64,000 bases of DNA, from NCBI GenBank assembly GCA_003164715.1, contig PLTZ01000027.1, forward strand, positions 1-64,000. The letters are read 5' to 3'. Position numbers and translations under genes: made by a program. The stretch is from Opitutaceae bacterium. GTDB lineage: Bacteria > Verrucomicrobiota > Verrucomicrobiia > Opitutales > Opitutaceae. The notes below the pieces were generated by a model. It was not told the DNA's origin. It searched no databases and saw only the letters and a program-made list of their open reading frames with translations. Shown in pieces: positions 1-55,459 of the stretch. Each line of letters begins with the position of its first letter. The stretch's first letter is position 1.

Positions 1-209
1 GCATCTTCCCCTGTCAACGCTTCGGTGACGTCCTTACGGGCGCCCCCGCATGACTCGGGGCTGGGATGAATGGTTTTGTTCATGCCCATATCGATTATTT
101 CATTCGACTCCTCATGTTGGTTTTACTGACGCACTCCTAATGATCCGCGGCGACGGAGGGAGACGTCGGATCCGGTAGTTGTTTAGGCTGTTCCGGCTTG
201 ACGATATCA
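1..209. other. Non-coding window edge, AT-richer than the rest
   Basis: No gene was found here on either strand. The stretch is visibly poorer in GC than the rest of the window. It contains a small hairpin, CCCCG (44-48) pairing with CGGGG (56-60). Together with the toxin-antitoxin genes that follow, it looks compositionally foreign, but no insertion-sequence end, integrase or direct repeat could be recognised. What lies to the left of the window is unknown. Confidence 0.4.
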
Positions 210-52098: not shown

Positions 52099-54435
52099 AT
52101 GCACCGAACCCCGCTCCTCTGCCTCGCCTGCCTGTCGCTGGCGCTCGCCGGCCCTGCGGCCGCGCAGACGCCGCCCTACAAGGATCCCGCGCAGCCGCTC
52201 GAGGCGCGCCTGGCGGACCTCCTCGGCCGGATGACCCTCGAGGAGAAGGTCGCCCAGCTCCAGGGTTTCCGCACCACCGACCCGCACGCCTTTGACGAGA
52301 AGGGCAACTTTGTCGGCGGCGCCGACGCCCCCGCGCTTGCCAACGGCGCAGGCTCCGTCTGGGCGTGGACGGGCACCCCCGACCGCTTCGCCCGCAACGC
52401 CCGCGAGCGGGTCGTGCGCATGAACTCGGTCCAGAAGTACATGGCCGAGAAGACGCGCCTCGGCATCCCGGTCTTCTCGTTCTCCGAGGCCGTGCACGGC
52501 TACATGGCCGCGGGGGCGACCAGCTTCCCGGCGGCCATTGCGCTCGGCAGCACGTGGGACCCCGCGCTCCTTGAGCGCGTCTTCGCGGCTGCCGCAGTGG
52601 AGGCGAGCGCGCGCGGCGTCCGCCAGGTCCTGGCGCCCGTCCTCGACCTCGCCCGCGACCCGCGCTGGGGCCGCTTCGACGAGTGCTACGGCGAGGACCC
52701 CTACCTGGTCTCCCGGATGGGCATGGCCGCGATCTACGGGCTGCAGGGCCGCGACATCCGGATCGGCCCCGAGCATGTCGCCGTGACCCTCAAGCACTTC
52801 GCGGGCCACGGCCAGCCCGAGGGCGGCCGCAACATCGCCCCCGTAGGCTACTCGGACCGCGAGTTCCGGGAGAACCACCTCTATCCCTTCGAGATGGCCG
52901 TCCGGGTGGCCCGCGCGCACTCGCTCATGGCCTCCTACAACGAGTGGGACGGCGTCCCGAACCATGTGAACCACAAGCTCCTGACCGACATCCTGCGGAC
53001 GGAGTGGGGCTTTGACGGCTTCGTGATGAGCGACGGCGGCGGCATCGATGTCGTCTATGAGGACCACCACGCCGCCGCGGGCCCCGCCGAGGCCGGCGTC
53101 CTGAGCATCGAGGCCGGCGTGGACTACGACCTCGGGGGCAAGGGCCGGTGCTTCTCGACCCTGGCCGCCGAGGAGCGGGCCGGGAAGGTGTCGATGGCGG
53201 CGATCGACCGGGCGGCCGCCGGAGTCCTGCGCGTGAAGTTCCTCTGCGGCCTCTTTGACCGGCCCTACACGGATCCCGACCTCTCGGCGAAGGTGACCCA
53301 CACCGACGCGCACCGGGCGCTGGCCCGCGAGGCGGCCGAGGAGGCCATGGTGCTCCTTAAGAACGAGCACCACACGCTCCCCTTCGACGCCGCCAAGTTA
53401 AAGACCCTCGCGGTCATCGGGCCCAATGCGGCCGAGGTCCACCTCGGCGGCTATTCCGCCGTGCCGATGGAGGGCGTGAGCGTCCTGCAGGGCATAAAAG
53501 ACTTCGCGGGCGGCTCCTTCAAGGTCCTCTACGCGGAGGGGTGCAAGCTGACCGCCAACCATGCTTCGGGCTGGCTCGTGAACGAGAACCCCGTTCCCAA
53601 CGACAGGGCCGACGACAGCCGCCTTATCGACGAGGCCGTGGACACGGCGCTAAGGAGCGACGCCATAGTCCTCGTCCTTGGAGAGAACGAGCTCTTGCGC
53701 CGGGAGGCGTGGAGCGAGGAGCACCTGGGCGACCGGGATACCTTGGACCTGGTCGGCCGCCAGCGCGAGCTCGCGGCGGCAGTCCTCGCCACGGGCAAGC
53801 CCGTGGCCGTTCTCCTCGTCAACGGAGGCCCCCTCACGGTCAGCTACCTCCAGGAGCACGCCCCGGCCATCATCGAGTGCTGGTACCTGGGGGAGGAGAC
53901 GGGCCCGGCCGTGGCCGACGCGCTCTTCGGCAGGGTGAGCCCCAGCGGGAAGCTCACGGTCACCTTCCCGCGCTCGGTCGGCCAGCTGCCCGCCTACTAC
54001 GACCACAAGCCCTCGCGCATGCGCAGCTACGTCCTCGCCGACTCGACGCCCCTCTATCCGTTCGGCTTTGGCCTGAGCTACGCGAGCTTCGGCTACGGGA
54101 ACCTCCGGGTCTCGCCGGCGACGATGGGAGCCGGGGGCACGGCACAGGTCGCGGTCGACGTGACGAACACCGGCGCCGTCAAGGCGGACGAGGTCGTCCA
54201 GCTCTACGTTCACGCGGTCGTGAGCCTTCCCGTGCGGCCGGTCGAGGAGCTCAAGGACTTCCAGAGGGTCACCCTAGCCCCCGGAGAAACGCGCACGGTC
54301 TCGTTCGACGTCGGCCCCGACCAGCTTCAGGCGTACGACCTCGCCATGCGCCGGACGGTGCAACCGGGTGACTTCGAGATCCTTGTCGGAAAATCCTCCG
54401 CCGATGTCCTGAAGGCCACGCTCCGGGTGGAGTAG
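52099..54435 (+). CDS. GH3 beta-glucosidase (BglX-like), secreted
   Basis: A 778-residue enzyme with signal peptide (LLCLACLSLALAGPAAAQ). The (alpha/beta)8 domain shows VLAPVLDLARDPRWGRFDECYGEDPYLVSRMG and KHFAGHGQPEGGRN. The nucleophile Asp is in GFDGFVMSDGGGID. An alpha/beta sandwich (about 390-610) and a C-terminal fibronectin-III-like domain (about 690-778) follow. It removes non-reducing beta-glucosyl, or possibly beta-xylosyl, units in the periplasm. Start preceded by eight C and T. It lies 30 bases after the TonB-like gene, so it may be in that operon. Confidence 0.94.
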   Translation: MHRTPLLCLACLSLALAGPAAAQTPPYKDPAQPLEARLADLLGRMTLEEKVAQLQGFRTTDPHAFDEKGNFVGGADAPALANGAGSVWAWTGTPDRFARNARERVVRMNSVQKYMAEKTRLGIPVFSFSEAVHGYMAAGATSFPAAIALGSTWDPALLERVFAAAAVEASARGVRQVLAPVLDLARDPRWGRFDECYGEDPYLVSRMGMAAIYGLQGRDIRIGPEHVAVTLKHFAGHGQPEGGRNIAPVGYSDREFRENHLYPFEMAVRVARAHSLMASYNEWDGVPNHVNHKLLTDILRTEWGFDGFVMSDGGGIDVVYEDHHAAAGPAEAGVLSIEAGVDYDLGGKGRCFSTLAAEERAGKVSMAAIDRAAAGVLRVKFLCGLFDRPYTDPDLSAKVTHTDAHRALAREAAEEAMVLLKNEHHTLPFDAAKLKTLAVIGPNAAEVHLGGYSAVPMEGVSVLQGIKDFAGGSFKVLYAEGCKLTANHASGWLVNENPVPNDRADDSRLIDEAVDTALRSDAIVLVLGENELLRREAWSEEHLGDRDTLDLVGRQRELAAAVLATGKPVAVLLVNGGPLTVSYLQEHAPAIIECWYLGEETGPAVADALFGRVSPSGKLTVTFPRSVGQLPAYYDHKPSRMRSYVLADSTPLYPFGFGLSYASFGYGNLRVSPATMGAGGTAQVAVDVTNTGAVKADEVVQLYVHAVVSLPVRPVEELKDFQRVTLAPGETRTVSFDVGPDQLQAYDLAMRRTVQPGDFEILVGKSSADVLKATLRVE

Positions 54436-54560: not shown

Positions 54561-54615
54561 TACTAAAAAAAATTTTGGGCGAGTGAGCCCGGGCCTACTT
54601 GCGGCTGTTTCGGCC

Positions 54616-54644
54616 GCCCGACAATGTCGGGCTATTCATTTTCT
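54616..54644 (+). terminator. Terminator candidate after the GH3 gene
   Basis: GCCCGAC (616-622) pairs perfectly with GTCGGGC (626-632) across loop AAT and is followed by the T-rich TATTCATTTTCT. It lies 180 bases after the GH3 stop on the same strand. A partly overlapping GCGGC/GCCGC hairpin (601-617) precedes it. The T run is interrupted, so efficiency is uncertain. Confidence 0.4.
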
Positions 54645-54690
54645 GTCGCCGCTTATCCGATGCTCCTCGCCTCAACGGCAGTGCCGTTAG

Positions 54691-54753
54691 TTACTTCTTC
54701 TTCGACTTCGATTTCTTCTTCGAAACGACTTTCTTAGCTTTCTTCTTAGCCAT
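54691..54753 (-). CDS. 20-residue lysine-rich micropeptide
   Basis: The whole product is MAKKKAKKVVSKKKSKSKKK: 12 of 20 residues are lysine, resembling a histone H1 tail. Expression is well supported by GAAGGAGA eight bases before the ATG, one of the best ribosome binding sites in the window. The reading frame stays open upstream, but the site sits right at this Met. Two bases after the stop lies a hairpin AACGGC/GCCGTT (674-688). An 8-bp inverted repeat lies 33-57 bases upstream, and a TACAAT -10-like element lies at 843-848. A nucleic-acid-binding or ribosome-associated role is a guess. No family is recognised. Confidence 0.6.
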   Translation of the reverse strand: MAKKKAKKVVSKKKSKSKKK

Positions 54754-54785
54754 GGTGGGTTCTCCTTCGCTTAGGGTTGTCTCGT

Positions 54786-54810
54786 ATCCGGAAAAATTAT
54801 TCTTCCGGAT
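54786..54810 (-). promoter_or_regulatory. Inverted repeat upstream of the micropeptide gene
   Basis: ATCCGGAA (786-793) and TTCCGGAT (803-810) form a perfect dyad around an AT-only-like nine-base core. It could be an operator over a promoter, since AATAAT/TAATTT lies in the core on the minus strand. If transcription starts near 54836 after the TACAAT at 843-848, it could instead be a leader hairpin. The stretch 54780-54880 is unusually AT-rich for this window. Confidence 0.45.
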
Positions 54811-54958
54811 TCGTTGAGCACATTGTCGCCCATCGTCGCGGCATTGTAAACAACTGTCGTATCGCAAAACGCGAAAACTTTTCCTGCGCCCGGCGGCCCA
54901 AATCGCGCGGATTGCGCGCAAATTGCGGCCGCCCGTGTATCCATTTACCCGATAAGTC

Positions 54959-55459
54959 TCAGGCCGGCCACTTCGGCGCCGCGGGCGCGGAGATCGCCTC
55001 CCCGGGGATCGGGCGCTTGCGGTACTCCGAATAGTCCGGCACGATCCGCTGGTACGTCTTGTCCATGAGCGGCGAGGAGATGATGAAGTCCGCGGAGGCG
55101 CGGTCGCACGCGATCGGGATGTTCCAGACGACCGCCATCCGCAGGAGCGCCTTCACGTCGGGATCGTGGGGCTGCGGCTCGAGCGGGTCCCAGAAGAAGA
55201 TGAGGAAGTCGATGTCGCCCTCGACGATCTTCGAGCCGATCTGCTGGTCGCCGCCGAGAGGCCCGCTCTCGAGGCGCTTGATCGGGAACTTGAGCTCCTT
55301 CTCCAGGACGGCGCCGGTCGTGCCCGTCGCGTAGACCTTGTGGTGGGCGAGGAGGTCGCGGTTGAACTTCGCCCATTCGATCAGGTCGCGCTTCTTGTTG
55401 TCGTGGGCGACGAGCGCGATCTTCTTGTTAAGCCCCATTTCGATCGTCTTGTATTTCAT
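54959..55459 (-). CDS. mgsA: Methylglyoxal synthase
   Basis: A 166-residue enzyme converting dihydroxyacetone phosphate to methylglyoxal and phosphate. It contains [33 protein letters not shown], the phosphate-binding and catalytic [11 protein letters not shown] (catalytic Asp), [21 protein letters not shown] and [13 protein letters not shown]. It relieves sugar-phosphate stress when phosphate is scarce. ATG 55459 was used; the Met eight codons later is an alternative. It is divergent from the CvfB-like gene. Confidence 0.96.

Follow-up and report, generated by a model that had tools for sequence, protein, structure and literature searches.

A twenty-codon lysine-rich gene behind the conserved leader of a small basic-protein locus in Opitutaceae

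In the 64,000-nucleotide stretch of Opitutaceae DNA analysed here (the window), a minus-strand gene for a 20-residue peptide with 12 lysines stands behind a promoter and a 5' leader that precede genes for small basic proteins in other genera of the family (Table 1). A preliminary description of the window had proposed this micro-gene and credited it with a regulatory layout of its own. Both proposals hold: the peptide gene lies where it had been placed, and its promoter, Shine-Dalgarno sequence and 5' dyad are all conserved. On sequence comparison the micro-gene is a genuine protein-coding gene, and its conserved promoter suggests that it is transcribed separately. We think it probable that it represents a housekeeping small-basic-protein gene, a one-per-genome locus of Opitutaceae, which has been reduced in the window lineage to a lysine peptide.

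Table 1. The lysine-peptide gene and its surroundings in the window
Feature	Sequence	Coordinates	Strand	Basis or remark
Upstream neighbour mgsA		54959..55459	minus	methylglyoxal-synthase-like; name from sequence
Upstream box	ACGACAGTTGTTTACAAT	54843..54860	minus	invariant; overlaps the -35 region; includes TACAAT
-35 element	TTTACA	54850-54845	minus	scan; conserved in 7/7 aligned species
-10 element	GACAAT	54827-54822	minus	seven-species alignment (A6)
Conserved 5' leader		54750..54822	minus	common to other Opitutaceae small basic-protein genes; model R3
Leader hairpin (dyad)		54786..54810	minus	fold and covariation
Shine-Dalgarno	GAAGGAGAA	54768-54760	minus	direct reading; strong
Micro-ORF	MAKKKAKKVVSKKKSKSKKK	54753-54691	minus	20 codons, 12 Lys; coordinates script-verified
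Small hairpin	AACGGCACTGCCGTT	54688-54674	minus	two bases after the stop; not conserved in relatives
Putative structured 3' UTR		54565..54671	minus	closing helix and U8 tract
Closing helix	GGCGAGGAGC with GCTCACTCGCC	54671-54662 with 54588-54578	minus	
U8 tract		54572-54565	minus	inferred 3' end

The lysine-peptide unit is carried by 8 of the 13 genomes of the window genus. Searched at the DNA level, 57 related genomes yielded it in five members of the genus besides that of the window (71-74% identity, E 1e-14 to 1e-22); a comparison anchored on mgsA added G002 and a leader similarity search G011, and the orthologues in these seven further genomes encode 19-24 residues. The gene mgsA adjoins the micro-gene in seven of the lysine-type genomes and not in G011. 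The core of the upstream box, the 16-mer ACGACAGTTGTTTACA, is identical in six of the 13 genomes and occurs once in each, at the unit only, even when one mismatch is allowed. The leader-model search found no leader in G005 and G010, and gave only weak matches, before unrelated sequence, in G001 and G012; in these four genomes the unit is missing or unrecognised, being either dispensable there or lost in assembly. Searches beyond the genus were made with a pattern combining promoter and ORF, which returned 112 stretches from a collection of 84,980 species and 19 from a viral collection. Only six of these records encode the lysine peptide family, and all six are Opitutaceae metagenome-assembled genomes of the window genus (palsa_1447, palsa_1446, palsa_1380, B4coas_bin-0458, AM-lipid-02-D3_bin-1065 and VK1_bin-0186). 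Nearly all the other stretches are chance matches, and we reject horizontal or viral spread of the unit. One IMG/VR viral contig (L185) has, after a sequence that fits the promoter pattern by chance, a lysine-rich ORF of 31 residues, MAKKATGKKKNDPIVTGAKKQKNKKKKGSKK. A protein HMM built from the lysine peptides alone gave weak results, the peptides being of low complexity, and a search for a Shine-Dalgarno sequence followed by MAKK returned the window genome only.

Conservation of frame, Shine-Dalgarno and dyad in close relatives, which the preliminary description had named as the point to check, is found among the genomes that carry the unit. The eight ORFs are 19, 20, 20, 20, 21, 21, 24 and 24 codons long; all begin MAK, differ in length by whole codons and end in a run of lysine or arginine. 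We compared synonymous and nonsynonymous differences between them, a test limited by the low complexity of a lysine ORF, and the closest pair (G003 and G006) showed five synonymous differences to one nonsynonymous, where about 22% synonymous would be expected from the sequence; our own binomial arithmetic puts the chance of this result alone at about 0.003. The counts are 9 to 2 between G006 and G008 and 10 to 3 between G003 and G008, and more distant pairs come closer to the neutral expectation. The Shine-Dalgarno sequence, claimed to be excellent in the window and confirmed as strong, is of the type GAAGGA(A/G)AA in most orthologues; G004 has a weaker site (GAAAGATA) and G008 an altered one (GTAGGAAAA).

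A sigma-70-type promoter stands directly upstream of the leader. Its two elements are separated by exactly 17 nt in the seven-species alignment, where the -10 element reads GACAAT, GACACT, GATTAT, GATACT or GATGAT, with positions 1, 2 and 6 invariant (GAnnnT). Read by eye, other genera have TTTACA or TTGCTA with a 17-nt spacer at the corresponding place, and the window conforms to the resulting pattern of TTTACA (or TTGCTA), 17 nt and GAnnnn, one of the marks by which we recognise the locus. Variants of the upstream box, CGACGGTTGTTTAC(A/T)(A/T)TG, precede the 47-residue protein gene in several other genera. The TACAAT element first taken as part of the regulatory layout is present, at 54848-54843, and yet not as a promoter element in its own right: it overlaps the -35 TTTACA, and read as a -10 box it has no conserved -35 element 17 nt upstream, whereas TTTACA-17-GAnnnT is conserved. 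Transcription would start near 54815, a few bases before the dyad.

The relationship to genes outside the genus rests on the leader, for which we built three models. R1, a sequence model made from seven lysine-type promoter-leader regions only, matches other genera at E values of 1e-11 to 7e-8, mostly before genes for 47-residue proteins such as MGDRSPKSVQKQASQKQSRANDSNSKKQQLITSQQATKAKAAAGKKK; a weaker match in G033 (E = 2e-4) stands directly before a gene for a 33-residue protein, MAKTQNSQKQTKKQPLKTAAEKRAAKRDKKNAR. R2 describes the leader with its stem and, with the window in its training set, finds 69 of 252 Opitutaceae genomes at E<1e-8, in 20 genera, with one strong copy in each, the window genome (G000) included; a single copy per genome is another mark of the locus. 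R3 is an independent control, a covariance model built only from leaders of the 47-residue type and without lysine-type leaders. In the 64 kb of the window it has a single significant site (54822-54750, minus strand, E=5e-9; next best 0.29), and it also recovers all seven other lysine-type loci. Because R3 recovers the window site and these seven loci, we take the window leader to be homologous to the leader of the 47-residue protein genes; like theirs, it ends at the start codon, which is a further mark of the locus. No Rfam family matched the leader or the 3' region.

Weak likenesses to the leader model also lie upstream of rplT, the gene of bL20, in G111, G072, G205 and G008. The hairpin there differs in sequence, scores much lower and sits between rpmI and rplT, and we regard the likeness as coincidental. 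That hairpin, GGCGGGTGA...CCTAAGCCGACCCGCCGGCGA, is itself conserved in several Opitutaceae (L321, L322, L325, L328) and may be an L20 autogenous operator.

Within the leader, the perfect 8-bp dyad that had been described, ATCCGGAA...TTCCGGAT, is confirmed 33-57 bases upstream of the ATG. Further G-U and A-U pairs lengthen it into a stem of 11 bp closed by a loop of 3 nt, and the window leader folds with z = -4.9. A hairpin occupies the corresponding place in all seven aligned lysine-type species, with stem sequences and loop lengths that vary. In an alignment of 72 leaders (A9), which was fitted to the structure and so favours the stem in a covariation test, the paired fraction of cells is 87.5%, and sliding the partners lowers it to 44-53%. 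Both partners have changed in 7 of the 11 pairs, a total of 34 cells where shuffles give 13.4 +- 2.9; the alignment scores 0.211 for covariation and shuffled ones 0.149 +- 0.010, with 0 of 500 shuffles reaching the observed value. Pair counting in an unfitted MAFFT alignment of 25 sequences points in the same direction, supporting the stem; RNAalifold predicted no structure on the 25-leader MAFFT alignment. We read the dyad as an RNA hairpin at the 5' terminus of the message, with a covarying stem, in a leader common to small basic-protein genes. The loop is nearly constant in leaders of the 47-residue type (AAACRAACA), relaxed in most lysine-type ones and kept in G011. The window loop region, GAAUAAUUU, differs from this motif, which is typical of the 47-residue type and is not required for the locus.

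The products behind the leader change between genera. The gene that the leader precedes in Opitutaceae is almost always that of a basic protein of 47 residues (MGDRSPKS...), in many cases with the gene of a 33-residue protein (MAKSQNSKKQTKK...) after it, and the two genes form a frequent two-gene unit (L214, L208, L216, L219 and about 60 other loci); the 33-residue gene lies downstream of the 47-residue gene, often directly, or, in G033, straight behind the leader. The 47-residue gene, beginning MGDRSPKS or MGDKSPKS, is found in Opitutaceae and in other orders and classes of Verrucomicrobiota. It shares with the window the promoter layout and the homologous, covarying 5' leader, and its protein resembles the lysine peptide in being very small and basic, with a lysine tail. 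Unlike the window peptide, which is 20 residues of mainly lysine and begins MAKKK, it has a conserved MGDRSPKS...QQATKAK pattern, and its N-terminus MG-D-(R/K)-S-P-K does not occur in the window peptide. The 33-residue protein, MAK[ST]QNSKKQTKK...KKAAKRDKK, starts MAK as the lysine peptide does and is about 40% Lys/Arg, but it is longer and has a distinct conserved motif, QNSKKQTKK, that does not occur in the window peptide. The window genome has no homologue of either protein.

Within the window genus, G009 has the 47-residue gene, and G011 has a leader of the 47-residue type, with an intact loop, before the lysine peptide MAKSKKAVKKPAKKKSAKKKK. Most simply, the locus would have lost the 47-residue protein in the window genus and would now encode a lysine peptide derived either from the 33-residue partner by shortening or from the 47-residue protein by collapse. 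Beyond the leader that they have in common, homology of the lysine peptide to either protein is not demonstrable at such length and low complexity. Elsewhere, G184 (L313) has a 47-residue protein shortened in frame to 24 residues, MGDKSPKATQKQATKSKAASNKKK, and in G071 (L314) AGG replaces the start codon of the 47-residue gene, perhaps in a decayed copy or through an assembly error.

In the reading we favour, that of a housekeeping gene reduced to a lysine peptide, the sigma-70-type promoter would start transcription a few bases before the hairpin, which would form the 5' end of the mRNA and probably protects the message, sets its translation or does both. The Shine-Dalgarno sequence would then drive translation of a cationic peptide: a 47-residue protein in most genera, often with a 33-residue partner, and a lysine peptide of 19-24 residues in the window genus. 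On its downstream side in the window the micro-gene faces a convergent gene (52099-54435, plus strand), which gives it a monocistronic layout. Taken together, this layout, the sigma-70-like promoter, the 5' hairpin and the Shine-Dalgarno sequence suggest that a polycationic, disordered peptide is steadily and strongly expressed. The product is most likely abundant and intrinsically disordered, and its predicted targets are rRNA or the ribosome, mRNA, or nucleoid DNA. The histone-tail-like or ribosome-associated character proposed in the preliminary description is a conjecture.

The hairpin might instead be an autoregulatory RNA operator to which the basic product binds, damping its own translation, as some ribosomal proteins do by binding a hairpin in their 5' mRNA. 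Conservation and covariation of the hairpin, the conserved AAACRAACA loop of the 47-residue type, the strong basicity of the products and a leader that ends at the start codon region would all suit such an operator. The hairpin, however, keeps a distance of about 33 nt to the start codon and leaves the Shine-Dalgarno sequence uncovered in folds; moreover, relaxation of the loop coincides exactly with the change of the protein to a lysine peptide, which fits a joint change of RNA and protein but also a simple loss of function. We consider autoregulation unlikely. In a variant of this reading, a tiny basic protein would bind its own 5' hairpin across Opitutaceae as an autoregulatory RNA-protein module, and the protein partner would have been rebuilt in the window genus: the 47-residue protein was replaced by, or collapsed to, a 20-residue lysine peptide while the loop changed with it, to leave a very small regulatory pair. 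This too we doubt.

The 3' end probably lies farther downstream than first supposed. The small hairpin two bases after the stop exists as described, but as an end element it fails: it is not conserved and has no U-run on the minus strand, and we reject it as a terminator. The proposed transcript of about 160 bases is likewise not borne out. In four species (G000, G004, G006 and G008) GGCGAG begins 19-20 nt past the stop, paired with CTCGCC across a span of 92-102 nt; a U-rich tail follows this closing helix in three of them, and in the window it is the U8 tract. The helix is absent in G007 and G002. The transcript is probably about 250 nt long, ending at the U-tract near 54565, and folds with z = -3.9. 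Such a strongly folding 3' region, with a closing helix that recurs in four species, could make the transcript a dual-function small RNA, in which the structured 3' part is the regulatory RNA and the lysine ORF a by-product or minor product. Yet the 3' region diverges faster than ORF and leader and is absent in G002 and G007, it matches no Rfam family, and the mRNAs of other genera often either close with a simple stem and U-run resembling a terminator or read on into the 33-residue gene. Nor is it 6S RNA, a candidate we rejected for the 3' structure, since 6S RNA lies elsewhere in the window genome (G000:C49; RF00013, 44.5 bits, just below the cut-off of 46.4). We judge a dual-function RNA quite improbable. 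By eye, the 3' regions of G006 and G008 (L029, L032) also show a possible pseudoknot, about 10-130 nt after the micro-ORF stop, in which GUCGCC would pair with GGCGAC across the closing helix GGGCGAGG/CCUCGCCC.

That the dyad acts as DNA, as an operator that overlaps the transcription start and binds a dimeric transcription factor, strikes us as very improbable. It is palindromic in several lysine-type species (TTCGGRA...TYCCGAA) and overlaps the predicted start site, but its half-sites are variably spaced, G-U pairs occur often, as do compensatory changes, and the outer stem stays paired although its sequence changes freely. In leaders of the 47-residue type the arms are not symmetric as DNA, GGGG...UUCC being paired through G-U. 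A lysine-sensing attenuator, with the short lysine-rich ORF and nearby hairpins as the leader peptide unit of a downstream operon, is highly improbable, given the convergent gene downstream in the window, no lysine gene in the stretches examined in relatives, and a 5' leader common to proteins that are not lysine-only.

Searches of Pfam, NCBIfam, Rfam and PDB point to a leader and small-basic-protein gene family not described there. The window peptide matched nothing in NCBIfam (E up to 10) or Pfam, a 20-residue query having little power; the four small proteins searched had no NCBIfam match at E up to 10, TIGR04137 included; the one Pfam match to the 47-residue protein (E = 0.58) is noise. 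Sequence searches of PDB with the small proteins found no match, and the diagnostic peptide strings did not occur in the literature searched. Some databases may carry these proteins under the name 'hypothetical protein'. Two known groups invite comparison. The bTHX (Thx) ribosomal protein, of about 20-30 residues, is extremely basic, and the window peptide is as short and as basic but has no bTHX-like motif. TIGR04137 is a Chlamydiae/Verrucomicrobia small basic protein family; it shares with the window peptide small size, basicity and phylum, but the peptide does not match its profile.

The leader RNA and the small basic proteins make up an uncatalogued gene family, with a single copy in each of at least 69 Opitutaceae genomes and relatives of the proteins in other Verrucomicrobiota. 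Such short genes of low complexity escape annotation pipelines but can be found through the leader. How small a conserved and, as its promoter suggests, separately transcribed protein gene can become is illustrated by the window lineage, with 19-24 codons that are mostly for lysine. Should the product be a component of the ribosome or nucleoid, a part of the basic cell machinery has been missed in the phylum. The window also holds the edge of a group II intron (positions 1-98, minus strand; Rfam group-II-D1D4-6, E=4.5e-14).
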